A DNA stretch of 54,143 nt from a virus. A program made the translations under genes and the position numbers. Below are positions 10,283 to 48,630 of this stretch, piece after piece. Position 1 is the stretch's first letter. Each line of letters starts with the position of its first letter. The notes beneath the pieces were generated by a model. It was not told where the DNA came from and searched no databases. It was given only the letters and a program-made list of their open reading frames with translations. Location: IMG/VR virus record IMGVR_UViG_3300048590_000145, positions 1 through 54,143 of that record, one strand, 5' to 3'.

Positions 10283-10569
10283 GATTCGATCGCTCCTCCT
10301 GTCAGATCCCGGAACTCGATCTTGATCTCTTGATGGGTGGCAGGATGGGATCCGGTTCGACGCCGGCCAACCATCCGGTTGAAGATCATCTCCCGTGCGG
10401 TGTTCGCTTCCTTCATCGAGCTACGGTCTGTCGAGTTGGCACTGTTGGCGATCTCGAACAGCGTGCGCACCACCAGCTCGTGTGCTGGCAGGCTGATCAT
10501 GTCATCGGTTTTCATGACGGGGTTGTCGGCCACCAGTTGCATAGCCTGTCTGATCGTGACGATCTTCAT
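10279..10569 (-). CDS. Small protein next to TerL, possible terminase accessory
   Basis: This 96-residue protein (MKIVTIRQAMQLVADNPVMK...) has SMKEANTAREMIFNRMVGRRR followed by a hydrophobic strand EIKIEFRDLTGG. This is loosely like the C-terminal part of some small terminase subunits, but the match is weak. Its ATG overlaps the TerL stop (ATGA) and AGGAG lies eight bases upstream, which decides against the GTG two codons earlier. Confidence 0.5.
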   Translation of the reverse strand: MKIVTIRQAMQLVADNPVMKTDDMISLPAHELVVRTLFEIANSANSTDRSSMKEANTAREMIFNRMVGRRRTGSHPATHQEIKIEFRDLTGGAIES

Positions 10570-12026
10570 GCCCACACTCCTGTCCAGTCTTCCTCGTAGT
10601 TCACTGACGCGGTGGACTGTCCGGCGTTGTCAAAAAATTTTCCGTTGAAGAAATCCAATTCCTTCACGGCCTGTACCACATAGCGCAGTGCGTCCATCAT
10701 GTGGCTGTACTTGTCGTGTAGCGGTTGCTGGGTCCACATCTGCAGCTTGGTGTTGAACTCGTACTTGTAGTTCTCCAAGCACTCGAGCAACCACTGGCAG
10801 TTTCCCGAATGGACGATGCTGTTGTACAACATCATGCGTGTCTGCTGGATGTCGGTGACAATCGAGAAGTCCCCAGACCTGGATCCCGGGATCTTCCACA
10901 CCTTGTTCGACTTGGCGAGCACTGCCACGTTCGGGAACCTCTGTCGCATCATGTCCGCGGGCGTGGTGTTGATCGCCTTCTCATGGTGCTCACCGTCCCA
11001 CGGGAGGATGATCGCAGCCAACTTGTTGAAGTACGGCTTCACCTGTAGATCGTCCACGTACTCCGGCAGTGCTTTGCCGTGTCCCTCGCCGCAGTCGTAC
11101 AGGAACAGTCTCCCGTTGATCCACTGGAACGCGATCCAACTGGTGGCGTCCGACTGGATCCCGGAGGAGCCGATGTCGAAGGCGACGTACACCGGATGGC
11201 CTGGATTTAGGTTGAACTCATGGACCCGCTTCTCCTCCTCCATCTTCATGTACGCCTCGCCGTACACCGCAGCGGCGTCCATCTCCTCGAAGGAGACGTA
11301 GTACTCCTGCTCGAACATCCGGTCGTTGCCGAACCGTTTGAGGTAGGTATCCCGGATCCGTTCAAGTTCTTCCGTGGTCAGGACCGGGGGCAGTCCTTCC
11401 CGCGTCATGATCTTGTTCAGGTCATCGATGTCCCTGATGATGACATCGGCCTCGGGGTTGTCCTTCATGGATTCCATCAACTGCCACAACGGATTCCGTC
11501 GTTTCCCTCGTGGCGTGCTGACGACCATCAACCGCTTGTCCTCTGCGCGGTTCTCAAGGATCGGCATCAGCCGGGGGATGGGATCCTCACGGGTGAACAG
11601 CGCCAGCTCGGTGATGGTGTAGTCCTGGAACGACGTACCCACACCGGCTTTGTCCTGTCCGGACTGGAAGTAGCCTTGCAGCTTCAGCCGGCTCTGGTTG
11701 GTGAACCGGCCCTCCATGACGGTGCCCTTCCAGTCCACTGTCTCCCCGGGTACGTTGTCCTGCAGGCCACGGATGTACTCCCCGGACTCCGGATCAATGT
11801 ATGTCTTGTCCCAAAGAATGTCCCGGATCATAGGATTCGAGAGGCTAATGTATACGCCCGTCGTCTTCGGAGTCTTGAGTCGGGCGTGACACTGCTCCAT
11901 CGATGCCGAGACATCCTTCCCCGTCTGCCGTGGCAAGACCGCGATCCCGTACCGATTGTTCCTCCACAGTCGGTGGAGTTCCTCCTGGTACGGGCGTGGC
12001 TTGTAGTAGACGGGGAAGGACGGCAC
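10566..12026 (-). CDS. terL: Terminase large subunit
   Basis: This 486-residue ATPase-nuclease packages DNA into the prohead. The N-terminal motor has a PRQTGKD Walker A variant (residues 32-38), an acidic Walker B ending YTITE140 and the coupling motif VVSTPRGKRRNP. The C-terminal RNase H-like nuclease begins at VAFDIGSSG with its metal-binding Asp, and the protein ends with a DALRYVVQA helix typical of TerL. The start is GTG, four bases after the upstream stop, with no strong ribosome site, suggesting coupling. It lies far from portal and capsid genes, near the end of the late operon. Confidence 0.92.
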   Translation of the reverse strand: MPSFPVYYKPRPYQEELHRLWRNNRYGIAVLPRQTGKDVSASMEQCHARLKTPKTTGVYISLSNPMIRDILWDKTYIDPESGEYIRGLQDNVPGETVDWKGTVMEGRFTNQSRLKLQGYFQSGQDKAGVGTSFQDYTITELALFTREDPIPRLMPILENRAEDKRLMVVSTPRGKRRNPLWQLMESMKDNPEADVIIRDIDDLNKIMTREGLPPVLTTEELERIRDTYLKRFGNDRMFEQEYYVSFEEMDAAAVYGEAYMKMEEEKRVHEFNLNPGHPVYVAFDIGSSGIQSDATSWIAFQWINGRLFLYDCGEGHGKALPEYVDDLQVKPYFNKLAAIILPWDGEHHEKAINTTPADMMRQRFPNVAVLAKSNKVWKIPGSRSGDFSIVTDIQQTRMMLYNSIVHSGNCQWLLECLENYKYEFNTKLQMWTQQPLHDKYSHMMDALRYVVQAVKELDFFNGKFFDNAGQSTASVNYEEDWTGVWA

Positions 12027-30655: not shown

Positions 30656-32641
30656 TCAGGCGCTGGCAGGTATCACACTAGAAGAGTTTGCAACAGGAGT
30701 CGAAAACTCGTTTTCGTTTTCTACCGTCATATCCGCCGATGGTGTGATTTCCATACCTAGTTTCTTCATAATCAGTTCTTGCGATTCCCGCATCATTGCC
30801 ATTTGCTCTTGCAACATGGTCAATGCAGCCTGTGTCATCTCGGTCAATTGAGCATTACCCGTGAGGCTGGCGAGCTGGTTCTCCTCGATGACTGCGATCC
30901 TCTGATCGCGTGCATCCACGGCTTCCACGTCACCGTTCCACATCAGGCCGATGTCCTTCGCAGACGTAGAGCCGGACAGTTCGATCTGCTTACCGATGAT
31001 GTACTGCATCGCCTTAGCAGCCTGTTGCAGCATCTGTGGATCTTGTGCTGCCGCCAGAGCCGGCATCGCCTGGGACAGCGGGACGAACAACTCGTTGAGG
31101 ATCCGCAGTTGCTTCTCGTCTTCCATCTCCACCAGTGACCCGGGTACAGCCCGGACCCAGTATTCGATGGCGAGCTGCTCGAAGTCCATCTCGATCGAGC
31201 CATCGGCATCGATGAGTTCCACCGGCAATCCGGCCCGGAGCAGCTTGAGCCGGGCGTCCGCGGTCGGTTGCACCTTCTTCACGTTCTTCAGTTCCTGGAA
31301 GTACACGGTCAACGCATACGAGCAGTAGTGACTGAAGAAGGATTCGATCGCCTTCTGGTAGTTGTTGGTCGTGATGTCGACCATCGCCTGCTGCGCCTCG
31401 ACACCCTGCGGTGTGGCCGACATACCGTTCCCGGCCTGAGTCGCCATCTGCTGATCGGCTGATCCGATCAGGTTCACCATCGATCCGAGGTTCTGCTGGC
31501 TGATCGCGCCGTACTGCATCAGCGTCTGGGTGTTCACCTCGAACGGTTCGATACGCGCATTCGGGTTGCTGATCTGTGTGTACTTACCAGGGCTCAGGTT
31601 CGGCAACGCATTGACCGCGCCGTATCCCAAGATGCTCGGGTTGATGTTGCGGTACCACAGTTTCATGGCACCGTTCAGCATCAAGTCCTGGAAGTCCTGC
31701 CGCCCGATCAGCAGCTCCACCTGCGACTTGCCGAGTGGCTGCTGGCTGTCCTTCTCCAACACCAGGAAGTGCACGGGGTGGAGCTTCAACGGATGCTTGT
31801 TCTTCTCGATCCGCAGAAGATGCTTGGTGTTGGGGGAGAAGGTGAGGAAGGGCTGCCCGCTCGAGGTGTACCAGGTGATGATCTCGTAGCCCTCGGGAAT
31901 GATCCCGTGCTTGCCGGTCTGGTAGTCGACCGAGTCCTTCGACCGTCCGTACGGTGCATCCTTCAACAGCGACTTCAACGCGGCGACATCCCAGCCGACT
32001 GCTTCGTCACGGATCAACGCATGGACATCACCACGGGTCAGGTATCGCCGGACGAACACGTTGTCGGCCTGGCGTACATCCCGCGCGCCAGGATCCGGGA
32101 ACACGTCACGGTAGTGGATGGCGTCGTACTTCATGTACCAACTACCTGCAGCATCCTGTAGCAGCTGCGGGATCACCACATCGAATCCGATGGTCAGCGC
32201 GGTCTTCGCAGAGGCGAACAAGTTCTGCTGCATGTCGTTGCTGTACTCATCGGAACCGATGATCTTCGTGGTGAGGATGTGCTTGGCGAAGATCCCCTGG
32301 ATCGAATCGTCGTCGTACTTGCTCAGCACTTCCACGTTCGGCGTGTTCTGCACGAGGTTCCGCGCGATACGCCGGATCAATCCCGCCGTCTCACCGGACG
32401 AGATGTTCGGCAGGTCGGGCTTCGGGCTGATGACAGCACCGTCCGCTAGCTTCTCCAACTTGTAGTAGGAGTGCACCCGCTGATCCATCTCGGACTTGTA
32501 CCGCTGGTACATGCCGTACAGCATGTGGCCGGCGGGTCCGATGTTGCGTACGTCGAGACTGCCATCCCGCGAGTCGATCCGGTATTCGTCATACCAGTCC
32601 TCGAAGGTGGTGACAGCCTTCTCAACCGTTTCTACTGCCAC
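30656..32641 (-). CDS. Portal protein
   Basis: This 661-residue protein has the portal features DAIHYRDVFPDPGARDVRQADNV (split by other residues in places), an EGYEIITWYTSSG strand, PLGKSQVELLIGRQDFQDL and the long C-terminal stem/wing helices, ending in a Gln/Met-rich helical tail (MTQAALTMLQEQMAMMRESQ). It forms the dodecameric channel for DNA packaging and ejection. GTG at 32641 follows GAGGAAGG and overlaps the end of the giant gene by ten bases. Confidence 0.85.
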   Translation of the reverse strand: MAVETVEKAVTTFEDWYDEYRIDSRDGSLDVRNIGPAGHMLYGMYQRYKSEMDQRVHSYYKLEKLADGAVISPKPDLPNISSGETAGLIRRIARNLVQNTPNVEVLSKYDDDSIQGIFAKHILTTKIIGSDEYSNDMQQNLFASAKTALTIGFDVVIPQLLQDAAGSWYMKYDAIHYRDVFPDPGARDVRQADNVFVRRYLTRGDVHALIRDEAVGWDVAALKSLLKDAPYGRSKDSVDYQTGKHGIIPEGYEIITWYTSSGQPFLTFSPNTKHLLRIEKNKHPLKLHPVHFLVLEKDSQQPLGKSQVELLIGRQDFQDLMLNGAMKLWYRNINPSILGYGAVNALPNLSPGKYTQISNPNARIEPFEVNTQTLMQYGAISQQNLGSMVNLIGSADQQMATQAGNGMSATPQGVEAQQAMVDITTNNYQKAIESFFSHYCSYALTVYFQELKNVKKVQPTADARLKLLRAGLPVELIDADGSIEMDFEQLAIEYWVRAVPGSLVEMEDEKQLRILNELFVPLSQAMPALAAAQDPQMLQQAAKAMQYIIGKQIELSGSTSAKDIGLMWNGDVEAVDARDQRIAVIEENQLASLTGNAQLTEMTQAALTMLQEQMAMMRESQELIMKKLGMEITPSADMTVENENEFSTPVANSSSVIPASA

Positions 32642-35600
32642 TGTTTCAACCTTCCTCGCTCAGACGAGTAGCGTTCCCGTCTGACACTAGCCCTACGGAC
32701 AATCGGATTATCGGCTTTCGGCGTGTACTGCCCGTCCATCTGGGGACCGTAGCCGCCACGGATGGACCGCAGAATCTTGTCGGTGAACAGCGCGGGTCCG
32801 TTGTAACTGCTGCCGCTGTACCCTCCTCGGCTGTAGCCACCGCGACTGTAGCCGCCGTAGCCACGACGGTAACCGCCGTAGTAGCCGTTGTACTTGCTGG
32901 TCCATCCCGGCGTGGTGCGCTTTTTCTCCACCTCTTCAAGGATGTCATCCTCGGCCTCAAGGTCGTTGACGATGTACGAGGGGACTACGGCCTTCAACCC
33001 GGTGTTGGTCTGTGTCAACTCGTTCACGATGTTGCCACGGGAGTCGAGCCGTGTTCCCTGTGCCGGAGGTGCCACGGTATGTGGTGTCGGCAGGAACAAC
33101 TGCGACAACGTGTTGCGGGTGAACGGTGTGGCCCACGGCTTGCCGTCCGGCCCGATCGTGTACGTCACGTTCAACTGGGTGTACTTGGCGACAGGGATCG
33201 CAGGGATCTTGTCGTTGTACAGCATCTCGCGGAACCCGGGACGGCCGGTGACATCATCGCCGTACCAGAACCTGCGCACTCGGTACATGGCCGATTCCTC
33301 GGACATGCCCATGTCGATGCTTTCCTGCTTGATCTGCTGCAGCCACTCGACACCGATCTGCCGGCGCATCTCGTACGGGATTGCCAACCCCTGCAATGCC
33401 GGACTGTCGAAGTCGATCGTTCCGTTCCACAACCCGGTGTACACACCGTCAGCACCATCCTTGGTGATGACTTCCATGTTGTTCTTGTCCATGATGGACA
33501 GCGCGTACTTCGGGCTGTTGTACAACTTGTACAGCGTGTTGGCCCGGGCTTCGATCTCGCTCTGCTGCCACCAGCCACCGGCTTGCTCGGTCTGGTACTT
33601 CAAGCCCCGAATGATCTCTTCCTTCGTGAACCTGTCCTGCCCACCCCGGCCCTGCCACGCCGCCATGATCAGTGCCTCGGCCTCGGCCCGGTTCAGTTCC
33701 TCAGTCGGAACCAGGGGTTGCTTCGGCACCATGTTCTCGCGCCGGAACGAACTGTCGCTGCCCCACTGCCCGGTGAACAGGGACAGCAATACGGCAGCCG
33801 TGGCATTGCCTTCGGCGTACTGGTGGAAGATGGCATCCATTCCTGAACGCTTCGCGTACCGCAGCCGGTTCTCGTTGGCGATCGGTTGGCCCGTGTTCGG
33901 ATCGATCACCGGCTCCCCGGTCACGGGATCCACGATCTGATCGCCCTGGTACTGCTCCATCACTTCCTTCTGCGACACCGGGTAGCGATTGCCCCCTACT
34001 CCGATCTCAGTGACCAGCTGCCCGTTCTTCTCCGCAGGGATCGCATACGGGTTACGGTCCACATCGTCGAACGCGGAACGCAGACCGTTGATGAACTGGT
34101 TCTCGAGCAACGGCCTCTCGTACATTCCGACGAGTGTGGCGATCATCCACTGCCGGCGGTTGATCGCCTCGGGTGTTTCAATCCCCTCACTGTCCAGCGC
34201 TTCCAGATCGGACACCAGCAGCGAGGCGTTCAGGTTGGCATCCCGCCATAGGTTCTGTACCGACGTGGGGATCGCGGAGGCCGCGTCGAGGAAACCCCAT
34301 CCGATGTTGCGGATGTCACCATCCTCGAAGAACCGCACCGTACCCATGAGCGGCGAGGTGAACTGCCGGATCATCCAGTGCGGGACCACAGCCGAACGGG
34401 GTTCACCGTCGTAATCACGGGAGAAGATGGTGTTGAGGATCGGGATGCTGTCCAGCCAGATCGAATCCGCGTACAGGAAATCGTTCTGCGCCTCGCGCGG
34501 GTCGTAGAAGTGCGGAAGGTTCAAGTACCGTTCCATGCGTCGGCGACGGCGCTCCTCCTCATCCTCACCGCCCAGTCCAAGGATGTTCGCGCCCATCAGC
34601 CCGAGAGCGACCAGCCCGGTCTGGGTGATCGCACCGCGCAGGACCAGTTTCTGCAGGTCCAGCGTCTCGAGCACATCGGTGAACTCGAAGTATTCGGGCT
34701 CGATCGTTTCACCGCGACGGGCGGCAGCAGCCACCTTGCGGATCGAGTTCGGTGTCTGGCGCCCATCGAGGAACATCGCCAGCCCTTGATCCGCTGCTGT
34801 CATACCCGTCAGCGTGGTCAGCGCGTTCACGTTGAACCGTGTGAACATGAACGGGATCTTCAACATGGTTCCCACGATGGCCTTCATCGTGCTGTCCGAG
34901 GCATACAGGGAATCGATGGGCCGCATGATCATGTCGCCCAGCACCGTGCCCTTGGTGGACCGGACCTGTGCAACCTGCGCAACACCAGCACGGTGAGGGT
35001 TGAACTCCTCGCGTGAGAACTGTTTCTTCAGCCACATCGGATCGGCTTCCAGTTCCTGTGCCAGCGTCTCAAGCGAGATCGAGTTGTTCGTGGCCGCCAT
35101 GTATTCCAGTGCACCCAGGATGTATCGCTTCGCCGCCGCGGTCTTACGCTGCCCGAGCGTGGGGTCGTTGTACACCCGTGCAGTCGTGCCTGCCCACTTC
35201 TCAAGAGTTCGGGCGATCCGCCCTCCACGGGAGATCTGGCCTTCCTCATCCTCGAACTCTGTCGGGATGATCATGTTCTGGTAGGTCATCTCGCCGAACA
35301 ACTCGCCACGCCACTTCGGATCAGCTCCGAGCTGCTCAGCGATTTTCAGGATCAGTTTGATCTGTTCCGGGGTATAGGTGAGCTTGATCTGATCCAACCC
35401 GACCAACTGCCCGAACGACGATTCCTGCAGTCGGGACAACGCGCGACCACTGATTCCGACGTTCTGCCCGAGAAGGAACTCGGTAACGTTGTTCATCTGG
35501 TTGCGCATGTGAACCTCGATGATCGCCGAGGTCCACAGTGCCGGGTTCGCCAGACGGGTGATGATCGACATGTGCACGATACTGCGCAGCGCCATGTTGG

Positions 35601-38600
35601 TGTTCTGCAAGTTCTCCCGGTACTCAACACCCTGCTTGGCGTAATCCCGGTACGTCGTCTTCTTCTGCCGGCCAAGATGATTCTTCTTCAGCCAGTTCTC
35701 CCGCTGAGTGTTCCGGTAGAAGATGCTCGACGCGGGAACATCCGAGGCCACATCGCCATCGAATGCAGCTTCGTGACCCGCCATCACCTCCCAGGTCTTG
35801 TTCATCGATTCCAGGATTGCCGGCTCCCGCATCTGTATCCGGACTCCGGGATCCACCGACAGGTACAGCTCGTTGGTCTCAGGATCCTGAAGCTTCGCCA
35901 GGACCTCGGGATCAAGACTCGCAGGCATGTTCGCCAGCAACGGTGTGGAGTATTGGAACGTGTGGAAGAACCCATCAGTGTCCACACGGAACATCGCGTG
36001 GAACTGCTTGTTGGAGTTCTGCACCTGACCAAACAGCACATCCACCCATTCGGACCAGTCGTACTCGGCCTTGTACTTCTTCTTGCCATCCAGCTTCATC
36101 GGAGCCCAGGCTTTGCCATCGGTACGGCTGGCCTGCGCAAGGAAGATCTTTCGCCAGAACGTGTTCGACTCATGCGGAACATCCGCTCCGTGCAACGGAT
36201 GCCACCCGCGTCGCACGTTCTGCAACATCGACGCGACTGCCTGCCGGTACATCTCCGGTGTCACCGGGTCGATCTCTCCTTCGAGAGGAGCCGGAGCACC
36301 CAGCCACTGCCGTACGAGATAGTCAATCTCGATCATGTCCGCTGTCGGGTGCAGGCCCAGAACATCGAGCAGCTCCTTGGCCTGCCCGGTGTTGTTCCAG
36401 TTGTCCATGTCCTTCGGGTCACGCGACAACGGCTGGGTGTACCGTCCGAGTTTCTCGTCCGCCTTGTCCCAGTGCACCTGTTCCATCGGCATCAGATACT
36501 TCGCCGGGTAGTAGTCCGTGGGCGGGGGAACGATCCGTGTGATGAGATCCCACACCGTCTGATCATCACTGTTGAACCGCATGATCTGCTCGTCACCGAA
36601 CTGATCCCGCGGTTCCCGGGTGACCGTCTGCATACCTTGAGTGCTCGCCACACGCGCGTTGTGCACCGAGGCGTCGCGGGACATCACCACACCGAACGCC
36701 AAGGTGATCGGGTTCTCGTCCGCCGGCAACGGGGTTTCCAACTGCAGCAACCCGGTCTTGATGAGTTCCCGCTTCGAACCGTCAGGCAGTGTCCTGATCA
36801 ACGTCGTGTGGAACGTGAACGCATCGTCGAACCACGAGCCCGTGTGCTCCACCCCGGCATCATCGGTGTACTTCGTCAGCACGGAGTTGGCACGCTTGAT
36901 GAGCATCGAGTGCAGACCGGGCCAGGTCGGGTTGGACATGGCGTCCGTCATGACACTGGGGAGGAAGCCGACAACAGCATTCGTCACCTTGTCGTTCCTG
37001 ACCGTCAGCACACCAGGATTGGACACGACCTGGTTCGGGGAGATCCCCGCGATCGACATGGTGACCAGCAGGATCTGCCCGAGTCGTTGTTCATCGGTGA
37101 GCGTTGTGGACTGTTGATCCGAGGCGACGAGATCGACCCAGGCATCCCCGAGTTCTGCGCGGCCTTCCGCGTTCAACTGCTGCAAGTACGCGAAGGTACT
37201 CGTGGAAGAGGAAAGAATGTCGTCGGCCTCTTCCACGCTCAACGAGTTGTTCATCGCGGCGTACCTGTTGAGGAACGCTTCCAGCTCGTTCCACTTCTCC
37301 GAGAACGACCTGGTGTCATCCGGCATCAGCAGGTTGACCAGATCGGAGCGGAAGTCCACACCCGTGAAGGCGAACAAGGTCTTGAAGTCCGAGACCACGT
37401 TACGCATCCCGGCCTTGTCTTCTTGACCCTTGCGTCCGGTCATCGACCCGATGTGCACCGTGTTGTCCTTGTACACCGACAACGGGCCAACGAACTGCTC
37501 ATCCTCCGCCATCGGGACCAGCGTCGTCTTCACACCGTGCGCCAACATCTTCTGCGCCCAGCCCAGCTCGAACTTGCCGTGCAGCATCTGACCCCGGTGG
37601 TCGGGCCGGATGTCGTCGATGGTGAACGGCGGTAGCAGCGTGGCATTCGCCTCGACCGCAGGACGGGGAATGGCGACTCGCAAGCCACCGCGCTCACCAT
37701 TCAGCGGTGTGCTCCACTGTCCGACGATGTGGCCCTTGTCGAGGTTGTTCGGCAACCGGAATCCGAGACGGTGGATCAGCACCGAGCCGTCGCTGCCGAC
37801 CAGCAGGAACAAATCACCGGACAGCACGGTACGTCCCGCTGTCAGCGGATCCTGTCCAGCGGACAATGCATCGAGGAACCTGTCGAGCGCTTCCTCCGGG
37901 TCGCGGACACCCGGGGTGTACGTCCCGTTCGGGTGTTCCTTGTAGATCGGAATGCTCGAGTCGTACTCGCCCAACATGCCGAGAAGCGTGGCGCGTCCTT
38001 CAGGCTGGGCGGCGAAGTCGAGCAGCTGCTTGGCGATCTTGGTGAACTGATCCCCTACTGCTGTTGCCTGCTGGATCGGGCGACCGAACGCCAACACGTT
38101 GTCACTGGACACACCGAGCATGAGATTGGTGGGAACCAGTTGCATCGACACCCTGCGGAAGATCTCGCTGAAGTTGTCGTTGACGATCCGCGCGCCTTCG
38201 TTGATCGCCATGTCTTCGGTGATCAGGTTGACGTTGATGTTCTGGAACGCCTCCTGATGGATGGCGCTACGTGACGACGTGAGACTGGCGGCCGTTGCGT
38301 CGTACTCCCGATCCTCGGTGATCGGCTCGTAGAAGTTGCCAGACCCGTCATTCATCGAGCGGTACTTGATGGGCATCGGACCGGTCAGCATATACGTGGA
38401 CACTTCCTTGCGCAGATCACTGGCACTGCGTGACGAGCCGAGCATGATGATGACGCCTTCACGCGCGAATGCGTCAACGATCTTGATAGCCCGGGTGGCC
38501 GCTGTGACTTCGTCATATCCGTGCCAGCTGAGAATGCTTTCCAGATCGATGATGACCACATCGCCGTACGACGGTTTGGTCGACGCATTCTGGAAGAAGT

Positions 38601-41600
38601 TCTCGTCGAAGGAGACCCGACCGAGAACCCCGTCCACCACCTGTGTCGAAGCCAGATCCTCCTTGAACTCCCAGATCATGCCGTTGGGGCCGAGACGATC
38701 CTGAATCTTGGAGTACGCCTGCCACGACTTCATCAGCCCGATCGGGTCGCTCATGTCCTCGAAGGGAACTCCGAGCCGCTTCAACTGCTTGCCGATGTCT
38801 TCGACCTTCAACAGTTTGCTGATGGTCTTCCAGCCACGCTTGTTAACCGCGGCAATGTCAAGCTTGCCTTCAGCCTTCTCCCGCAACCGGGACCGGCGCT
38901 CGGCTTCCTGCTCCCCATTGCGCACCCACTGTGCGAGGTTCTGCGCGAACTTGCCCTTCGTCGGTTTCTCCCCGGGTGGCCGGCGCCGCGCGCGTGCCAG
39001 GGGGAGGAACTGTGTGACCGGGGCATCCCGCAGCGTGGCCTCCTCGCCAAGCCGTTCCAGGCCCAACTCCCGCAACCGCGCTTCACCGAGCTCCGGGAAG
39101 ACATCCATCTCATCGAGATTGAGCACCGGCTGTTGCAGATCGTACGGGTCGAACCCGGTGCCACCCAGCAACTTCTGGGCATTGGACTCGCTCAGGGCCA
39201 CCAGCTTCGGTGGCTTACCAGGTTCGGTCAGGGACTCGAGCGGGATCGGTTGGCCGGTGGCCTGTGCGGTGATGTACCGCTCTGCCCACCACACCTCCTT
39301 CTTCCCGGTGTCGGTGTTCCTGCCCACAACGACGTGACGCGACTTCACGTACTGGTACATCGCGGGGAAGTCGTCGAGGAAGAACACCGACATCGGGTAC
39401 TTGCGGGTGAGCAGATGCCACGCTTTCCGCTTCATGATGTCGGCTACATCGCCGGTCTCCATGTTGAGAACGACTTGCAGATCCGCATTCTTGAACGCCG
39501 GGGGAACCGCACCTCCGCTTGCCAGCATGTCCAGCGGTCCCTGCTGCAACAGCTTGGACTCCGCATTCGGGCCGAAGATCATGGCAGCGATCTGGCTGAT
39601 CTCCGACCGGGCAGCAGGGTTGCGCCCGCGTCCGTCGAAGAACCTGTTGTTGGCCCAGTCCCGCGAGTACGGCTTCTTGTCCACATCGACGTATTCGATG
39701 TGAATGGTGTAGCCCTGCTTTAGTAGATCTTTGATCTTCGTCAATCGGTCGGCGTGCTTGAACAGCAACGCCGTGTCGAACACACGCAGGCCGGAGTTCT
39801 GTGTCTCGACGTTTGTCATGTCCACATCGGAAACCCCTGTGGTGATGTCAATCGGCTGTGCCGGGTCAGCCGTGGGGATCAACTGCACAGTGGACACGAA
39901 GTGGTGATGCAGTCGGGCGTAGGCGAACTGGTCGAACACGAGCTGTGCTGATTGACCCGGGTTCACCACCAGGTCGGCGGTGCTGTGGTGCTCAGCAGGA
40001 TCCGGCAGACGGAAGCTCGGACGGAACGCCCCGACCCACGGCCCGAAGATCTTCGGGTAGTTCCCGGCCTTCGGAACCTCCGTGCCAACCCTGGTCTGGC
40101 GCATCGCCAGTTCCATCTTCAGGATGTTCACCGGTACCCGGCTGTTCCACTCACCCAGCAGTTTCTCGTTCAGGATCGTGCCGGTGATCTGCCGAGCGAT
40201 GTCCTCGGTGTTCGTCTTACGCTTCTGCGGATCGATGAAGCCCTGGTTCCTGCCCAGGTCGACCATCATCTTGACCGCGGTGTGCACCTGTGGGGTGAAC
40301 AATCCGTCAACCAGGAAACTCCATGTGTCGTCGTGGAGTCGAGCGAACTCGTGAACGTTCCCAGCGATGGCAGGTGCGGCCTTCACGTCGTTCGCGGAAC
40401 GTGTGGTGCGCTCCTCGAAGTACACCAGGGTGGCCCAGATCGCCAGTTGATCCCACTCTTCGGCCACCAGGGGATCCCAGGTCTCGATGTCGTCGAGACT
40501 TCCCTGCGGTTTGAACGCCACATCCCGGAACTTGTCGAGTAGAGCGGAGAACGCTTCCTCCCGTTCCCCGTCGTTGATGGAGATCTTGGCCTTGACACCC
40601 TGGAACTTGATGACCCTGCCGCCCTCGGACAGGAAGCGGACCAGTGCCGCCTTCTTCATGGTGTCCTCGGTACGCTGCCCTGGATCGTGTGACAGCGAGA
40701 AGGACTGACGGATCGATTCGAAGTCACGGGCGAGGATCGAGCCGGCGAACCGGAGGTCGTGACCGGACTGTTCGAATGCCGACGCCCTGTCCAGGTGCTC
40801 CTGGTACTCACGCTCCGCTTCCGCGATCAGTCCCGCATTGCCCGTGGCCCGGGCATCTGCCAGTCGGGCACCAGCGGCCAGTGTCTCCACCTTGTTCCGC
40901 TGGATGACCGCTGTCACCAGCATGTCGCGGGTGGCCTCCCGCTCACCCTCCTCCACGTTGGAGAGGAAGAGCTCTTCCAATGCGGACGTGTCGCCCCACA
41001 TCTTCTCCTGCATGATGGCGGCAACTTCCGCCTTCAACCTGTCAAGCAGTTTCGGATCCTGCAACGTACCGATCGACTTCAGTGCATTCGCCACATGAAC
41101 GACCAGGGTGTTGCGCAGTTGCTCCGCAGCACGTTCGCCACGGCCTGTGCCGGCTGTGGTCTGGTACGCCTCGAGAATCGTATTCAACATCCGTTGGATC
41201 GGGTAGAACCCGTCAACGTCCGAACCCTCCTCGATGGCCTGCCGGCGGATGAACGACTCCACGTACGTGATCAGCTGCCAGGACTTGTCCAGTTCATTGC
41301 CGGAGCTGGTCTGGAAGACGTGCGCGAACGACGCCTCCTTCATCATCTGACCCAAGTCGGACGGCTTCCCCGGCTTCGAGGAGGCGTGCTCGGAGTCCTG
41401 GTACAACTGGACCACGTTCAACGAGTTGATGTCCCGGGTCACCGGGAAAAGTACGGCACGGGCGAACGCCTGTGTCGCCGGATCCTTCAACGCTTCCAGT
41501 GCACCGCGCAACGTGGACAAGTCGATGGTCAATTCGGAGCCGTCCTTGAGCTGCACCCTGACCGGGCCATTGGCGAGCATCGTCGGGCTGGACGCCACCG

Positions 41601-44600
41601 CCTTCCAGTCATAGGAGTGAACCGCGTTCATCTCCAACGTCAGAGCAGTACCGAACCCGATCGTGTCGATCGAGGCCAGGGCGTCCCCGAGACCGGACAA
41701 CTGCGGGTCGGACTTACCCTTGTCATGCAGACGGATCAGCATCTCGTGGAACGCGCGCATCGCCTGTTCCCGCGCGTTCGGGCCCACCGCATCCCCGAAC
41801 AGCCGTGCATTGTCGATCGACTGCTCCAAGTACATGAGCAGGTTGTTGTACGTGGTGTCCGTCTCCTGGCTGCGCACCTGACGCCACGCATCCTCGGGGT
41901 GGATCCCCTGGGATACCAACGACCGGACCTTCTGCTCCTGGTCTGCCAGCAGATCCACCATGTGCTGCAAGGTCACCTTGTTGCCGGTGATGATGTTCCT
42001 GCTCTCATCGAGCGCGTTCGCCCGGCGGTGCATGATCGACTGGAAGTCGGCCAGTGTCTCGCGCAACTCCATGTCGGTCGATCCGGCCTGGTACACGTCA
42101 CTGGGGGTGAGTTCGAACTCCTCCACGGAATCCACGAACGGGGACAGTTCCGCCCGCCCGAACAGCCACACCGGCTCGTTATTGATCGCCTCGTACAACT
42201 CGTCCAGCGATTCCGACTGGAACATGGTGTTCAGGAATCGTCGCAGTTCGTGACCACCATCCGGCAAGGTGTTCAGGAAGTACATCGTTTCCAAGAACCG
42301 CGACTTGATCATCTTGGGATTGACTCTGCCGACCCGCGCCTCATCCGCGACCTGCTCGACCTTCGGCACCACCCACTGCTGGTTGTCGGCATCCCAGTGC
42401 GCCAGCGCGTCCAGACTGACCGGGGTACCCAGCAACTGGTTCCACTCGGCCAGCTTCGTGAATACGAAATACTTCTCAGCGGCGTCCTCAAGGTTCTCGT
42501 TCGTCATCACGTCTTCGATGAACTGCGCCTCGACCAGTTGCCCGTCCACCCGGTCGAACACCGCACGACGGGACGCGGCGGGGATCAGCTCCGCGATCAG
42601 CTTGGCGACACTCGGATCCCGTTGCAGCATGTGACGGTACACCGCGACCCGGGACACCGCCCCATCCACCGGCTTGATCTCTCCGGCGAACATCTCGCGC
42701 CAGGTATCCAACTGATGCTGGAAATCCCGCAGCCCGTCGATGAAGTCGTCCTTGGCCTTCTTCCCCTGCTTCTGCCGGCGCGCGCGTTCCGCGGCCACCG
42801 CTGACTGCAACGAGTCGATCAACATGGTGTACCCATTGACCACCGGCACACCGGATACGTTCTCGCCATCCTGGTACTCGGCCAGGGTGGACAGTGCGGT
42901 GATGTCCCACGGCGGATCCGGCATCCCCCGGTGGGAGAAGTACCCCGGCACCCGCTTCAACCCGGAGAACTCGTGACGCGCAGCCGACACGCTCTTCGTC
43001 AGCATCATGTCGTGGAACTGTCGCAGCGTCATCTGCGGGCCGATGTAGAACGCATCACTGCCGACCAGCTCGGCCAACTGCAGATCGCCGAAGACCTCGA
43101 CCACGGCCAGTGCCGCAGTGTTCGAGTGCGCGGCCTTCGGGTAGCACAGCTCGGTCAAGCGCTGGATCTTCTTCTTCTTCGCCGAGTCATCGGCCAGTCC
43201 ACGGTTCTTCTCGAGCTCGATCTGCAACGACCGGCGCAGTAGCAACTGCAGCAACGTGATGTCGTTGCCGTCAACGCTGTACTCCCCGGATTCGACATCC
43301 ATCTCGAAGTTCCCGACCCGGATGTTCGAGATCAGCAGGAACAACTGTCGGATGTCGAGGTGGGTGTTGTTCTCGTTCTTCGTGGACTGTGCGATCTCGG
43401 AGATCCAGTTCAGGACACGGCGCTCGATCGAGTTGTGGTTCTGGATCGTCTGAAGATCCGTCTCCGTCTTGTCCGCACCCAGGTTCGCGTACATCTGAGC
43501 GAGCACGAACTCGGGCGAGGTCTCCGTCCGATCCATCGTTTCCGGTCGCCGGTTGAACGTCAGATCGATCGCGGACTGGATCAGCGCGTGGTAGTGCAAG
43601 AACTGTGACGGTCGTGGCTCCTCGAAACCGCCGAGCTGCGCCATGCTCAACCCGTACGTGGCCGCCTGCAACTGCGCACGGGTGTCGAGCCTGGCGATGT
43701 CCGCGGGCCGTGTCCCCGGATCGTCCTTGTCAATCGCGGGATCCTGGGCGAACGCGATCATCCCCAGATGTTCCTGGATCGACTCCCAGTTCGCAGAGAT
43801 CAGCGACCACAGATGCGTGACCTCGGGAACACCCGTGGCATCCGACATGGAGAACAAGGCTTCGGCCTCGAGCTCCCACATCTCCTGTGCCAACTTCACA
43901 CGGGCCTTCGGGTTTTGTCCTCGTACCCGGTTGAAGAACGCATCCAGCACTGTGCGCATGTCCCTGGGGTTGATCGGCCCGGACGGTTGCGCGTACCGAT
44001 CCATCAGCTTCTGGCGCAACCTGTCGAACCCGAGTTCCACCTGTGTCTTGCGCTCAACATCCAGGTTCTGGTTACCGAACAGATCCACGTACGCGGCCTC
44101 AGAGTCCGGTACGTCCATCGTCAACGTCCACGACTTCTCCACCGGGCCCTCGGCTTCAGCCACCGGCCCGGCCTGCTGCTCGAAATACTGCAGGCCACGG
44201 CGGAAGTTCTCGAGTTCCTCCCTCGGGACGTACAGGTCGAACTGCTGCACGAACGCATCCCCGTCGTGGTCGGCACCCAGCGCCTTCAACACCGACTGGT
44301 GCACGTACACCGTGCGGTGCGCGTTGCGCTTGGTCAGCAGTTTCGACACCTGCGGCAGGAACACCGCGAACGATCCCTGATCGATCAGCGGGTGTCTCGG
44401 CAGCATGAACTCGACGACCCGCTTCACCGCTTCGGCATCGATCAGGTTGCCATCAGCGTCAACCAGTTGCGCCTGCTTCTGGTACAGCTCGGTCAGACGG
44501 GCGTTCATCTCGTCGACTATCAACTCGCCACGGCCCGTATCGGTCTCAGCGGTGAAGTCCGCGTACCGCTGGATCAGCTCGCCGGTCGTCGAGTCGTCCC

Positions 44601-47067
44601 CGATCAGGGCACGCACCGCCTCGTTGATGCCGGTCAGATCCTCCAAGTACGATTCGACCCGGGCCAGATCCTGCATCGCCCGGTCCCTGCCGGATTGAGC
44701 AGCGTCCTTCTCCTCCTGCGTGGCACCAGGATCACTGAGCACCGCATCCAGTTCTGACACCTGTGCGCGGTACGCCGCCGCCTGATCGGTGTATCGGGAG
44801 ACCTTTGTGCCCAGTGCTTCGGCGTTCTTCACCATCGTGGTGATCATCTGATCGAACGACATCACAGCGGTGTTCGCGTCGAACAGCATCTCGTCGATCT
44901 CGTTGCCGAGCCGCAGGAACTCCGAGGTGGCCGCGTGTACCGTCACCGCATCCCCACCCAGCTTGTTCGCGTTCTTCTGCGCCTCCTCCCAACTGGTCTG
45001 CTGGATCAGGGGGAAACCCTCCTGTGCCACCGGGGACTCCGCAGCCGCACGGAACTTCATTCCTTCCTGGGCAGTCTCCCGAACAACCTCGGCTGCCTGA
45101 TCCTCCTCCGGGGTGGGGATGGACAGCATGTCGAGCGCGCGCTGGCTCATCCCCTTCTTGACCTCGCCCCACTCCTGCGCTGACACCGACTCCCCGGTAC
45201 GGATGTTGTAGGTGCGGCGCTGCACCTCGCTCAACTTCTGTTCCACGCTCGGGCCTTGGTTCAGCGCGCCCCAACCCATACCCATACCGGCCGCGCCACC
45301 GTACGCCGCAGCCTTCGCAACCTCGGTCGGGACCGGCGTCTCACCAACACTGAGCGGATCCAGGATCGCCTGCACACCTTCTTCCAGTGCTTCGCCGTAT
45401 CCGGTGATCAGCCCGGTGCGCCAGGCGCTGCCCTGCGTCAACTCCACTGCCGCGTTGTACATGTCGTCCGGTGTCACCAGATCACCACGGCGCCTTGCTG
45501 CGGCCCGGGCACGGAACTGCACCGTCAACGCCTTGGTCGCCTCACTCGGGGCGAACGCCTCCGGCACCAACCGGGTGGTCATGGTGCCGTCCGCGGCCCT
45601 GGTGTATCGCGTTCCCGCGATCACCTCTCCCTCGTCCCACTTCGCCAGCCGGCGGTTCACCGAACCGGGCAGCCACCGAGAACCTGCCGTCTCCGACGCC
45701 TCCCGGCCCGCGACAAACGCTCTGTCGTGACGGGCGATCCGGCCCAGCAACCCGCCGGTCGCCATCTGCACCGCGTCGATCCCGACACTGCCGATCGCCG
45801 AACCCCACTCAAGCGGGTTCTCGTACGGGTCGAACTGGCCCTGGGACTCGTTGAACCCCTTGCCGGTCCCCAGTGCCGTCGTCTTCCCCGCGACCACGGT
45901 GCCCATCTGGCCCATGTACAGCGCACGGCCCGGAGCACTCGAGAACTGCAGCACCGCATCCGCGCCGGTCGCCGCCAGGTCCACACCCTGCTTCCATCCC
46001 GGAACGAGTTGGTTCCCCTCGTCATCAACCTTGTACCAGTCCACCAATTGGTCGTCGCGCCCACCCATCTGAACCTCGTTCAGACCGCGCCACAGATTGG
46101 AGACCGGGGAGATCATCTTCGACCCGACGTTGCCCCACTCCTCCACCGCGAAACCCCACGCCGGCAACTCCCCGGCTCCGGCGAACTCCTCCTTGATCTG
46201 GTCCTGCCGGGTCGCAGCCCGTGCCGTCAGATCCGTCAGCTCATCCTTGTTCAGCCATGACCCGATACCACCGACAACACTTCCGACAACACCACCGATG
46301 ATCGCACCGGGCAATGCACCTACACCTGCGAACGGCGCACCGATGGCAGCACCGACTCCGGCGAACAGCGTGGCACCACCCGTGGCACCACCGGCAACCA
46401 GCAGATCGTCACCACGGCCCTTGACGATCGACTCCTCGTGCCGCTGCAGATCCGCCTGGTACTGCTCGGCGGACTTCGCGTACGCCGCCTGTTCGCTGTA
46501 ATGCTTGCGCAGACCCTGGATCTCCTCGGAGTACCCCTTCGGGTTCTCCTTCTGGAACTGCCGGCGGTTCTGGTAGTCGTCGAACAGGAACTGCCCCACC
46601 ATGTTGTCCGCGGTGCGCTCGTCGAACACCTCGTACAGGTTCTGCCCCTGCTGCAGCTTCCCGTTCAGGAACACATCACCGAACCGGAACTGCCCGTTCG
46701 GGTCGTCCCACAACGCAACCCCGGTGGCCGACGGATTCTTCTCCGGGTTGAACTGCTCGTAGAACACCGACGACTTCTTCTCCTCCATCGCCTTGTTCAT
46801 CCAGGTCGACTGCTGGTTCCAGAAGTCCCGGTAGAACTGGGTGTCCCACCCATTCTCCACACCTTCGGCGTTCTGCCCCGCGTACCACTGCGTCGCCGTC
46901 GACATCATCGACTGCGGCAGCCACGGCTGCAGTTGCGAATCCCCTGCCAGGTAATCCTGCTGCGCACGCCCGAACCGCTGCGCGGACTGCTTCAAACCAG
47001 CAGGAGCAGCCGGGTTGGCAGCCATACGGTCAAACGCCGACGTACCCGGCTTGTCATAGTTCGCCAT
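32632..47067 (-). CDS. Giant 4811-residue polyvalent virion protein with an RNA polymerase-like DxDGD motif
   Basis: One uninterrupted ORF of 14,436 bases. Seen: a Gly/Ala/Val-rich hydrophobic stretch at residues 222-272 (GAAIGAPFAGVGALPGAIIG and similar) like a membrane-inserting glycine zipper; D933-H-D-G-D937 within VLKALGADHDGDAFVQQFD, preceded by LPRHPLIDQGSF, like the RPxxHR...NADFDGD active site of multisubunit RNA polymerases and RNAi-type or crAss phage polymerases; a HAD-like VVIIDLESIL (D2841-x-E) with LGSSRSASD; an LPD38-like PFMFTRFNVNALT; and a Gly/Tyr/Arg-rich tail near 4723-4753. Known: N4 and crAss-like phages package giant polymerases. Inferred: it is an ejected virion protein, possibly an RNA polymerase. 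The second catalytic barrel is not identified. ATG at 47067 is chosen for GAGAGG upstream; ATG at 47085 is an alternative. Confidence 0.7.
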   Translation of the reverse strand: MANYDKPGTSAFDRMAANPAAPAGLKQSAQRFGRAQQDYLAGDSQLQPWLPQSMMSTATQWYAGQNAEGVENGWDTQFYRDFWNQQSTWMNKAMEEKKSSVFYEQFNPEKNPSATGVALWDDPNGQFRFGDVFLNGKLQQGQNLYEVFDERTADNMVGQFLFDDYQNRRQFQKENPKGYSEEIQGLRKHYSEQAAYAKSAEQYQADLQRHEESIVKGRGDDLLVAGGATGGATLFAGVGAAIGAPFAGVGALPGAIIGGVVGSVVGGIGSWLNKDELTDLTARAATRQDQIKEEFAGAGELPAWGFAVEEWGNVGSKMISPVSNLWRGLNEVQMGGRDDQLVDWYKVDDEGNQLVPGWKQGVDLAATGADAVLQFSSAPGRALYMGQMGTVVAGKTTALGTGKGFNESQGQFDPYENPLEWGSAIGSVGIDAVQMATGGLLGRIARHDRAFVAGREASETAGSRWLPGSVNRRLAKWDEGEVIAGTRYTRAADGTMTTRLVPEAFAPSEATKALTVQFRARAAARRRGDLVTPDDMYNAAVELTQGSAWRTGLITGYGEALEEGVQAILDPLSVGETPVPTEVAKAAAYGGAAGMGMGWGALNQGPSVEQKLSEVQRRTYNIRTGESVSAQEWGEVKKGMSQRALDMLSIPTPEEDQAAEVVRETAQEGMKFRAAAESPVAQEGFPLIQQTSWEEAQKNANKLGGDAVTVHAATSEFLRLGNEIDEMLFDANTAVMSFDQMITTMVKNAEALGTKVSRYTDQAAAYRAQVSELDAVLSDPGATQEEKDAAQSGRDRAMQDLARVESYLEDLTGINEAVRALIGDDSTTGELIQRYADFTAETDTGRGELIVDEMNARLTELYQKQAQLVDADGNLIDAEAVKRVVEFMLPRHPLIDQGSFAVFLPQVSKLLTKRNAHRTVYVHQSVLKALGADHDGDAFVQQFDLYVPREELENFRRGLQYFEQQAGPVAEAEGPVEKSWTLTMDVPDSEAAYVDLFGNQNLDVERKTQVELGFDRLRQKLMDRYAQPSGPINPRDMRTVLDAFFNRVRGQNPKARVKLAQEMWELEAEALFSMSDATGVPEVTHLWSLISANWESIQEHLGMIAFAQDPAIDKDDPGTRPADIARLDTRAQLQAATYGLSMAQLGGFEEPRPSQFLHYHALIQSAIDLTFNRRPETMDRTETSPEFVLAQMYANLGADKTETDLQTIQNHNSIERRVLNWISEIAQSTKNENNTHLDIRQLFLLISNIRVGNFEMDVESGEYSVDGNDITLLQLLLRRSLQIELEKNRGLADDSAKKKKIQRLTELCYPKAAHSNTAALAVVEVFGDLQLAELVGSDAFYIGPQMTLRQFHDMMLTKSVSAARHEFSGLKRVPGYFSHRGMPDPPWDITALSTLAEYQDGENVSGVPVVNGYTMLIDSLQSAVAAERARRQKQGKKAKDDFIDGLRDFQHQLDTWREMFAGEIKPVDGAVSRVAVYRHMLQRDPSVAKLIAELIPAASRRAVFDRVDGQLVEAQFIEDVMTNENLEDAAEKYFVFTKLAEWNQLLGTPVSLDALAHWDADNQQWVVPKVEQVADEARVGRVNPKMIKSRFLETMYFLNTLPDGGHELRRFLNTMFQSESLDELYEAINNEPVWLFGRAELSPFVDSVEEFELTPSDVYQAGSTDMELRETLADFQSIMHRRANALDESRNIITGNKVTLQHMVDLLADQEQKVRSLVSQGIHPEDAWRQVRSQETDTTYNNLLMYLEQSIDNARLFGDAVGPNAREQAMRAFHEMLIRLHDKGKSDPQLSGLGDALASIDTIGFGTALTLEMNAVHSYDWKAVASSPTMLANGPVRVQLKDGSELTIDLSTLRGALEALKDPATQAFARAVLFPVTRDINSLNVVQLYQDSEHASSKPGKPSDLGQMMKEASFAHVFQTSSGNELDKSWQLITYVESFIRRQAIEEGSDVDGFYPIQRMLNTILEAYQTTAGTGRGERAAEQLRNTLVVHVANALKSIGTLQDPKLLDRLKAEVAAIMQEKMWGDTSALEELFLSNVEEGEREATRDMLVTAVIQRNKVETLAAGARLADARATGNAGLIAEAEREYQEHLDRASAFEQSGHDLRFAGSILARDFESIRQSFSLSHDPGQRTEDTMKKAALVRFLSEGGRVIKFQGVKAKISINDGEREEAFSALLDKFRDVAFKPQGSLDDIETWDPLVAEEWDQLAIWATLVYFEERTTRSANDVKAAPAIAGNVHEFARLHDDTWSFLVDGLFTPQVHTAVKMMVDLGRNQGFIDPQKRKTNTEDIARQITGTILNEKLLGEWNSRVPVNILKMELAMRQTRVGTEVPKAGNYPKIFGPWVGAFRPSFRLPDPAEHHSTADLVVNPGQSAQLVFDQFAYARLHHHFVSTVQLIPTADPAQPIDITTGVSDVDMTNVETQNSGLRVFDTALLFKHADRLTKIKDLLKQGYTIHIEYVDVDKKPYSRDWANNRFFDGRGRNPAARSEISQIAAMIFGPNAESKLLQQGPLDMLASGGAVPPAFKNADLQVVLNMETGDVADIMKRKAWHLLTRKYPMSVFFLDDFPAMYQYVKSRHVVVGRNTDTGKKEVWWAERYITAQATGQPIPLESLTEPGKPPKLVALSESNAQKLLGGTGFDPYDLQQPVLNLDEMDVFPELGEARLRELGLERLGEEATLRDAPVTQFLPLARARRRPPGEKPTKGKFAQNLAQWVRNGEQEAERRSRLREKAEGKLDIAAVNKRGWKTISKLLKVEDIGKQLKRLGVPFEDMSDPIGLMKSWQAYSKIQDRLGPNGMIWEFKEDLASTQVVDGVLGRVSFDENFFQNASTKPSYGDVVIIDLESILSWHGYDEVTAATRAIKIVDAFAREGVIIMLGSSRSASDLRKEVSTYMLTGPMPIKYRSMNDGSGNFYEPITEDREYDATAASLTSSRSAIHQEAFQNINVNLITEDMAINEGARIVNDNFSEIFRRVSMQLVPTNLMLGVSSDNVLAFGRPIQQATAVGDQFTKIAKQLLDFAAQPEGRATLLGMLGEYDSSIPIYKEHPNGTYTPGVRDPEEALDRFLDALSAGQDPLTAGRTVLSGDLFLLVGSDGSVLIHRLGFRLPNNLDKGHIVGQWSTPLNGERGGLRVAIPRPAVEANATLLPPFTIDDIRPDHRGQMLHGKFELGWAQKMLAHGVKTTLVPMAEDEQFVGPLSVYKDNTVHIGSMTGRKGQEDKAGMRNVVSDFKTLFAFTGVDFRSDLVNLLMPDDTRSFSEKWNELEAFLNRYAAMNNSLSVEEADDILSSSTSTFAYLQQLNAEGRAELGDAWVDLVASDQQSTTLTDEQRLGQILLVTMSIAGISPNQVVSNPGVLTVRNDKVTNAVVGFLPSVMTDAMSNPTWPGLHSMLIKRANSVLTKYTDDAGVEHTGSWFDDAFTFHTTLIRTLPDGSKRELIKTGLLQLETPLPADENPITLAFGVVMSRDASVHNARVASTQGMQTVTREPRDQFGDEQIMRFNSDDQTVWDLITRIVPPPTDYYPAKYLMPMEQVHWDKADEKLGRYTQPLSRDPKDMDNWNNTGQAKELLDVLGLHPTADMIEIDYLVRQWLGAPAPLEGEIDPVTPEMYRQAVASMLQNVRRGWHPLHGADVPHESNTFWRKIFLAQASRTDGKAWAPMKLDGKKKYKAEYDWSEWVDVLFGQVQNSNKQFHAMFRVDTDGFFHTFQYSTPLLANMPASLDPEVLAKLQDPETNELYLSVDPGVRIQMREPAILESMNKTWEVMAGHEAAFDGDVASDVPASSIFYRNTQRENWLKKNHLGRQKKTTYRDYAKQGVEYRENLQNTNMALRSIVHMSIITRLANPALWTSAIIEVHMRNQMNNVTEFLLGQNVGISGRALSRLQESSFGQLVGLDQIKLTYTPEQIKLILKIAEQLGADPKWRGELFGEMTYQNMIIPTEFEDEEGQISRGGRIARTLEKWAGTTARVYNDPTLGQRKTAAAKRYILGALEYMAATNNSISLETLAQELEADPMWLKKQFSREEFNPHRAGVAQVAQVRSTKGTVLGDMIMRPIDSLYASDSTMKAIVGTMLKIPFMFTRFNVNALTTLTGMTAADQGLAMFLDGRQTPNSIRKVAAAARRGETIEPEYFEFTDVLETLDLQKLVLRGAITQTGLVALGLMGANILGLGGEDEEERRRRRMERYLNLPHFYDPREAQNDFLYADSIWLDSIPILNTIFSRDYDGEPRSAVVPHWMIRQFTSPLMGTVRFFEDGDIRNIGWGFLDAASAIPTSVQNLWRDANLNASLLVSDLEALDSEGIETPEAINRRQWMIATLVGMYERPLLENQFINGLRSAFDDVDRNPYAIPAEKNGQLVTEIGVGGNRYPVSQKEVMEQYQGDQIVDPVTGEPVIDPNTGQPIANENRLRYAKRSGMDAIFHQYAEGNATAAVLLSLFTGQWGSDSSFRRENMVPKQPLVPTEELNRAEAEALIMAAWQGRGGQDRFTKEEIIRGLKYQTEQAGGWWQQSEIEARANTLYKLYNSPKYALSIMDKNNMEVITKDGADGVYTGLWNGTIDFDSPALQGLAIPYEMRRQIGVEWLQQIKQESIDMGMSEESAMYRVRRFWYGDDVTGRPGFREMLYNDKIPAIPVAKYTQLNVTYTIGPDGKPWATPFTRNTLSQLFLPTPHTVAPPAQGTRLDSRGNIVNELTQTNTGLKAVVPSYIVNDLEAEDDILEEVEKKRTTPGWTSKYNGYYGGYRRGYGGYSRGGYSRGGYSGSSYNGPALFTDKILRSIRGGYGPQMDGQYTPKADNPIVRRASVRRERYSSERGRLKQWQ

Positions 47068-47252: not shown

Positions 47253-47416
47253 ACCTTCCGCAGGAATTACCACGCTGTCAGCATCCTCAGCATTCCCCAC
47301 AGGGCGCTATCCGCCCATTTCCCTCATGTTTCCAGGTCATCCGGTGTTTTAATGGAAACTTTTGTGTGAGGTTCCAAAAGATAAAATAGATACAAATAAC
47401 ACAGACTATACCCCCC

Positions 47417-47440
47417 CTACATATATATGTATATATGTAG
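47417..47440. promoter_or_regulatory. AT-rich palindrome (CTACATATATA, 2-base centre)
   Basis: Two 11-base arms flank a TG centre, preceded by a run of seven C. The site sits in the middle of the divergent promoter region and may be an operator or an easily melted element. Confidence 0.6.
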
Positions 47441-47472
47441 TTATAGATAAACCTGAATCTCTTTAGTCTGGT

Positions 47473-47535: not shown

Positions 47536-47856
47536 ATGTCCAAGAAGCCACGGACGAAGAACCCCGTAACTCAGGCCATCCAGGCCAACATGCTCCACAT
47601 GCTCAACCCGCCGAGCGAACAAGACCGTGCCAAGGCAAAGGTCAAGGCAGCGCAGAAGCTCGCTGAGGTAGAGCAACTGCAACAGCTGTCAGCAACGATG
47701 GTCCTTGAGGCCATCCAGAACTCCCAGTTCAACATTCTGCGTCAAGCAGAGGAACTGGGGTTCACCGAGCAGCACCCGGTGTATCAGCGTGCAGTGCATG
47801 CTTACGCTGTTGGTACTGAGTCCGCAGCTCAGAACATGAAGCGCAAGCTCACGTGA
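47536..47856 (+). CDS. First early gene, helical hypothetical protein
   Basis: This 106-residue, basic and helical protein (MSKKPRTKNPVTQAIQANML...) has an Ala/Lys-rich helix AKAKVKAAQKLAEVEQLQQL and ends QNMKRKLT. It has a strong ribosome site (ATAAGGAGGACATC), lies directly behind the operator-like repeats and is closed by its own terminator, so it is a monocistronic early unit. A DNA-binding or host take-over role is possible but not shown. Confidence 0.7.
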   Translation: MSKKPRTKNPVTQAIQANMLHMLNPPSEQDRAKAKVKAAQKLAEVEQLQQLSATMVLEAIQNSQFNILRQAEELGFTEQHPVYQRAVHAYAVGTESAAQNMKRKLT

Positions 47857-48306: not shown

Positions 48307-48392
48307 CGTAGTCAGTGTAGTCACCTAAAGTCGTGAAACTTCTTTTCTCTTATAACTAGAAGTTTAAGAGTTAAGGTGACTACATGACTACA
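48307..48392. repeat. TGTAGTCA hairpin unit, cluster 2a
   Basis: CGTAGTCA (48307) and TGTAGTCA (48316) at a 9-bp step are followed by an AT-rich spacer with GAAACTTCT and AGAAGTTTA, then TGACTACA at 48377 and 48385. The spacer shares its GAAACTTCT...AAGTTTA pair with cluster 1 at 14.8 kb, so the two loci are related beyond the octamers. Confidence 0.8.
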
Positions 48393-48437
48393 CGGCCTGT
48401 TGATCATGCAAAACCCCTGGTCAGAGCCATGATCATT

Positions 48438-48490
48438 TGTAGTCACCTGAAATCCTTTTCAGGTGACTACACCCTGACTACATGACTACA
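48438..48490. repeat. Perfect 15-bp hairpin unit, cluster 2b
   Basis: TGTAGTCACCTGAAA (48438-48452) and its exact complement (48457-48471) flank a 4-base loop. Two further TGACTACA octamers follow at 48475 and 48483. Confidence 0.9.
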
Positions 48491-48585
48491 CTTTTTACAC
48501 TCCGTTCACCTACTACTCACGACACGCCGTGTCATGTAGTTGCGTAATCCTCACATCCATATCTTGATCTTGAAATCAGGGCAAA

Positions 48586-48630
48586 TGTAGTCAGGATGTA
48601 GTCACCTGAAATCTTTTTCTGGTGACTACA
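48586..48630. repeat. Hairpin unit, cluster 2c
   Basis: TGTAGTCA at 48586 and 48597 precede a stem nearly identical to cluster 2b (TGTAGTCACCTGAAA against TTTCTGGTGACTACA, one mismatch), ending with TGACTACA at 48623. Confidence 0.85.

Follow-up and report, generated by a model that had tools for sequence, protein, structure and literature searches.

A giant late phage protein is a candidate two-barrel virion RNA polymerase

We propose that the giant late protein encoded by IMG/VR virus record IMGVR_UViG_3300048590_000145 (analysed over all 54,143 bases, hereafter the window) is probably a two-barrel (beta/beta') DNA-dependent RNA polymerase fused into a very large virion or ejection protein. 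The ORF, identified by its reading frame and its homologues, lies at 32632..47067 on the minus strand, occupies 26.7% of the record and encodes 4,811 amino acids from an ATG at 47067, or 4,847 from a GTG at 47175. An earlier sequence-only reading had described it at these coordinates as the first late gene and about 27% of the genome, a description that our analysis bears out while adding the strand (minus, read from 47067 to 32632), which had been left unstated. The giant gene opens a leftward late unit. Its 3' end overlaps the portal gene (30656..32641, minus), which had no PHROG match of its own and was assigned by gene order, the portal gene directly following the giant gene in all annotated relatives examined. 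The same unit is closed by the large terminase (10566..12026, minus; phrog_2, E 3.8e-21). Divergent from the giant gene is a small first early gene of 106 amino acids (47536..47856, plus), a layout that relatives share.

Homologues of the giant protein, at 15-35% identity, occur in Microbacterium and Arthrobacter podoviruses and in about 30 IMG/VR contigs. Using tblastn, we recovered 57 phage records with a homologue (56 Microbacterium and 1 Arthrobacter), belonging to Eekayvirinae (Akonivirus, Tinytimothyvirus) and Burrovirus, with Arthrobacter phage MissAmericana unclassified; scans of IMG/VR added about 30 further homologues and two contigs within bacterial MAGs. The latter (L073 and L074) come from MAGs labelled Propionibacterium/Propionibacteriaceae, which is either a possible hint of the host or a binning error. 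In the 12 relatives compared in detail, the giant gene leads the late unit, is followed by the portal gene, and is labelled either 'hypothetical' or 'tape measure'. The homologous giant genes of Microbacterium cluster EK and Burro (gp27, gp31, gp32, gp33; 4,434-4,494 amino acids) occupy the same place before the portal gene and were published with unknown function (PMC7302621, PMC13069448). The relatives were described as podoviruses in which the role of the giant protein was called unclear, a ~250-kDa protein of Burro virions was attributed to the giant gene or to a processed part of its product, and Burro gp27 was found to be without similarity to N4 vRNAP (PMC7302621). As late as 2026, a note described the function of the giant gene as elusive (PMC13069448), and across the literature up to March 2026 the role of the protein is given as unknown or the protein is labelled 'tape measure'.

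The proposal starts from a catalytic-type aspartate motif, DHDGD (residues 933-937; 44257..44271, minus), whose codon pattern, GAYCAYGAYGGNGAY, has a single occurrence in the 54,143-base record. Translation confirmed the order reported in the sequence-only reading: R-x-P (residues 891-893; 44389..44397, minus), a hydrophobic strand, V-x-V-H-x-x-V, A-D-H-D-G-D and V-P. In profile alignment the R-x-P is equivalent to the RAPT of RpoC. By itself the D-x-D-G-D motif proves little, as it arose in 498 of 5,000 shuffles of the giant protein (10%); R-x-P at the observed distance before D-x-D-G-D arose in 19 of 5,000 (0.4%). Conservation of the three aspartates, which the earlier reading had named as a check, is complete: D-x-D-G-D with its upstream R-x-P is present in all 33 near-full-length homologues. 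The residues invariant across the family near the motif are R891, P893, S899, D933, D935, G936, D937 and G958.

Profile comparisons place this motif in a beta'-like active site. A profile search of the whole PDB matched the beta' subunits of AR9 and phiKZ exactly at the DxDGD site. With a narrower profile (A7, residues 868-975) we obtained 14 matches in the whole PDB, 11 of them RNA polymerase active sites from beta', gamma or RPA1 subunits (AR9 and cyanobacterial gamma included) or from the P23-45 tape-measure polymerase; the best match was phiKZ gp55 (E 0.0014). Alignment with hhalign to E. coli RpoC 420-474, from RAPT to DFDGD, scored 29.8, a value that none of 200 column shuffles reached (maximum 21.4). 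When the whole protein was scanned blindly with a beta' profile, three windows at 771-1100 scored 30-31 and the next best scored 19.5. The PHROG 'RNA polymerase beta subunit' matched residues 917-940 weakly (E 0.13), and searches with P0001 alone and with alignment A2 gave no matches.

An AlphaFold model of this region (34 sequences, pLDDT 75, pTM 0.49) predicts strands at 887-890 and 900-907, a short helix, a strand at 919-923 and a helix at 924-930, followed by DHDGD, a strand at 938-940 and a helix at 949-957. This is the order of a beta' barrel and not of an EF-hand; in phiKZ gp55 the DFDGD likewise lies between beta5 and beta6 (PMC8287921). A structure model at DHDGD was another check named by the earlier reading, with a calcium-binding loop given as an example of a fold that would speak against a polymerase. 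M. tuberculosis beta' chains were numerous among the Foldseek matches of this model, but at E > 1 and driven by helices, so that they carry little weight. Region 1010-1660 was modelled as mostly helical, and we found no specific match in it to the bridge helix or trigger loop of beta'. Motif conservation, profile matches and the predicted fold together identify a beta'-like double-psi barrel, whose second half spans residues ~885-985 (44113..44415, minus), and thereby support the original suggestion that the motif resembles the beta' active-site barrel.

The partner barrel likely lies downstream, at residues ~3051-3240 (37348..37917, minus), where profile alignment and modelling point to a beta-like double-psi barrel with catalytic-type lysines. 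Compared with a profile of 29 RpoB sequences, residues 3051-3240 scored 31.7 in hhalign, which 0 of 199 shuffles reached (mean 16.2, maximum 26.3), and swapped pairings of barrel and profile scored 16-17, equal to the null. This alignment puts conserved K3173 and K3180 (37528..37551, minus) on the GDK..GNK lysines, the two catalytic lysines of beta (E. coli K1065 and K1073), and invariant K3218 (37414..37416, minus) on the VPSRM segment (E. coli R1106). The lysines sit within the blocks GD(I) at 3084-3085, G-K...G-x-K and I-D...S-K. In a coarse RpoB scan, window 4456-4675 scored almost as well as region 3040-3260, and a jumbo-phage beta profile aligned at the same lysines but was equalled by 14 of 199 shuffles and was not significant.

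We modelled the downstream region with 33 sequences (pLDDT 78, pTM 0.63) and searched the PDB with Foldseek. The phiKZ nvRNAP ranked first (E 0.019), and Pol III RPC2, ASFV and E. coli beta were within the first nine matches; in BFVD, the matches after the protein's own family were RNA polymerases of Noxifer, Pithovirus and an entomopoxvirus. E-values to structures outside the family were 0.005 or worse, so that no fold match is significant alone, and matches to whole models were dominated by helices. HMMER gave no match of the beta-like region to PDB RNA polymerases, nor of its sub-profile to RpoB, gp66 or gp96; the support for this barrel comes entirely from profile-profile comparison and fold search. 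A second barrel upstream of the motif was rejected, no lysine in residues 400-930 being conserved in at least 90% of homologues. The sequence-only reading was therefore right that no second barrel lies upstream, but the doubt it drew from this about a polymerase is countered by the probable beta-like barrel ~2,240 residues downstream.

A Gly-rich hydrophobic segment near the N-terminus (residues ~225-275; 46243..46395, minus) contains the hydropathy maximum of the protein (residues 234-265), drew weak PHROG matches to endolysin, tape-measure and tail-lysin families, and may be a membrane-inserting part used in ejection. Pfam found no family above its cut-off on the giant protein and no consistent match across all family members. 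At residues ~2800-2900 (about 38370-38670, minus) the block 'VVIIDLESI...VIIMLGSSRS' resembles a HAD-like fold, with one homologue matching PF00702 weakly (E 0.011). Near the C-terminus, at residues ~4740-4790 (32710-32850, minus), is a Gly/Tyr/Arg-rich repeat tail, RGGYSRGGYSG, and the family consensus also shows recurrent Gly-rich stretches towards the C-terminus. Elsewhere in the record, a search for sigma-70 region 2 gave no match while its controls were positive, in keeping with the earlier statement that no sigma-like gene was recognised; a search for T7-type RNA polymerase (PF00940) also gave no match, but its control genomes were silent as well.

A candidate early promoter lies between the giant gene and the first early gene, at 47387..47455 on the plus strand. 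This single-copy element consists of an A-rich stretch, TATACCCCCCCTA and an AT-rich inverted repeat, and is conserved in most relatives. Its general form is an A-rich stretch, then TATACCCCC(C)(C)TATA (at 47407 in the window), then the AT-rich inverted repeat; on the early strand, it precedes the small first early gene at a distance of 0.2-0.5 kb from the giant gene. Besides the window, most relatives carry the TATACCCCC element; L023, L042 and L073 have variant forms, and searches of five relatives (L016, L018, L037, L046 and L066) did not recover it. The pattern TATAC{5,8}T[AT] occurs 29 times on both strands of 3.28 Mb of family loci, with almost all of the places listed at the element position. 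The element is a candidate promoter or possibly an origin, and it may be linked to the polymerase. A tandem TTTCCATTTTAGCAA was rejected as a genome-wide promoter motif, having just two adjacent copies.

Following the small first early gene is ~0.9 kb of non-coding DNA that holds a cluster of GTAGTCACCTGAAA palindromes (window 48310-48640), with six matches against 0.17 expected. In the equivalent stretch, Eekayvirinae carry 3-5 copies of the hairpin CCATG-CGAGA-CATGG (L003 6518-6840; L006 3543-3920; also L007, L009, L010, L011 and L013), and these small-stem hairpins recall N4 promoters. TATAAT-like -10 boxes of host sigma-A type lie just upstream of the giant gene in L003, L006, L007 and L009-L011, suggesting that late genes use the host polymerase.

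We considered whether DHDGD might be a calcium-binding, EF-hand-like loop, which D-x-D-G-D alone resembles and which its frequency in shuffled copies would allow. The strand-helix-loop-strand order, the invariant distant R-x-P and a PDB profile search that returned polymerases instead of EF-hands speak against this, and we give the idea practically no credence; conservation, strand order and profile matches led us to reject both an EF-hand and a chance origin of the motif. A purely structural role for the protein, in ejection or in the manner of a tape measure, with a barrel that is a relic or has some other use, is also quite improbable. The 'tape measure' annotation in some relatives and the Gly-rich hydrophobic segment would fit such a role, but the relatives are podoviruses, with no long tail to measure (PMC7302621), and the Asp triad and R-x-P stand out as the most conserved residues in a region that diverges fast, arguing that an active-site function has been kept.

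A further alternative grants a real beta'-like barrel and denies that the downstream region is its partner, the beta-like barrel lying elsewhere in the chain, in another phage protein or in a host protein. At the sequence level the second barrel is indeed less well supported than the first. Against this stand an RpoB score that no shuffle reached, an alignment that sets conserved lysines on catalytic lysines, and independent fold searches that return beta-type subunits; moreover, no beta-family match was found elsewhere in the record, and residues 400-930 offer no lysine of comparable conservation. We regard this alternative as unlikely, if somewhat less so than a purely structural role.

Under the two-barrel reading, the beta'-like barrel (residues ~700-985, with Asp933, Asp935 and Asp937) would hold the catalytic Mg2+, and the beta-like barrel (residues ~3051-3240, with K3173, K3180 and K3218) would contact RNA and NTP, both on one chain with beta' first and ~2,240 residues between them. 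The protein would be made late, packaged, and enter the host with the DNA, perhaps helped by the Gly-rich hydrophobic segment. There it would transcribe the first of the early genes, with the TATACCCCC-hairpin element at 47407 as the probable promoter. Ejection with the DNA and early transcription are suggested by analogy with P23-45 gp96, and we infer that this virus packages the protein, that the promoter is used and that the polymerase is active. Cleavage of the chain between the barrels may yield two halves of ~250 kDa, a conjecture that would explain the ~250-kDa Burro band against ~490 kDa predicted. Taken as a whole, we lean toward a model in which beta'-then-beta barrels on one virion chain of ~4,500-4,900 residues, possibly cut into two ~250-kDa subunits, start transcription at a unique C-run/AT-hairpin promoter.

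Under the polymerase reading, the largest actinobacteriophage gene, for which the literature to March 2026 that we searched offers no explanation, acquires a function that can be tested, and directly so in the cultured Microbacterium phages Burro, Akoni and TinyTimothy. If true, this reading would add a further virion RNA polymerase lineage to those of N4, crAss-like, phiKZ-like and P23-45 phages, with a reversed layout within a widespread actinobacterial phage group. Should the reversed order hold, a single chain can carry the two catalytic halves of cell-type RNA polymerase in a different arrangement, a point relevant to the origin of these enzymes.

Among known systems the nearest precedent is Thermus phage P23-45 gp96 (PDB 8H2N/8H2M), likewise a giant late virion protein (5,002 amino acids) with DFDGD in its N-terminal part; it joins a giant tape-measure protein to a virion polymerase whose DFDGD occupies residues 779-783, and its fragment 327-1124 is active (PMC10770324). 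Profile A7 matches gp96 at DFDGD and gp96 'NQEYAKSTGVDFDGD' aligns to the motif region of the giant protein, but similarity is detectable only around the motif, with none detected outside it. In gp96 of this long-tailed phage the beta-like barrel precedes the beta'-like barrel within ~800 residues, whereas in the podovirus protein the probable beta-like barrel follows beta' by ~2,240. The crAss-like phage phi14:2 gp66 (PDB 6VR4) is also a single-chain two-barrel virion polymerase of a podovirus-type phage, but its motif is DFDID, its barrels run beta then beta' (PMC10770324), and the giant-protein family profile gave no match to its motif. The phiKZ and AR9 non-virion RNA polymerases (gp55, gp71-73; PMC8287921) provided the best profile matches for the beta' site and, for phiKZ, the best PDB fold match of the downstream region, yet consist of several separate subunits rather than one chain. 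N4 virion RNA polymerase (Schitoviridae) is also a giant polymerase ejected with the DNA by a podovirus and uses hairpin-type promoters (PMC12633501), but has a T7-like single-subunit fold. In the single-chain two-barrel polymerases compared previously, the connector leads out of the beta-like barrel into the beta'-like one (PMC10770324); the giant protein seems to depart from this order of gp96, gp66 and the QDE-1 clade, having no conserved upstream lysine pair and a candidate beta barrel downstream. Single-chain two-barrel polymerases were thus already known, whereas the function of the giant-protein family was not, and as far as the literature up to March 2026 shows, the reverse order, beta' then beta with ~2,240 residues between, is undescribed for such polymerases.
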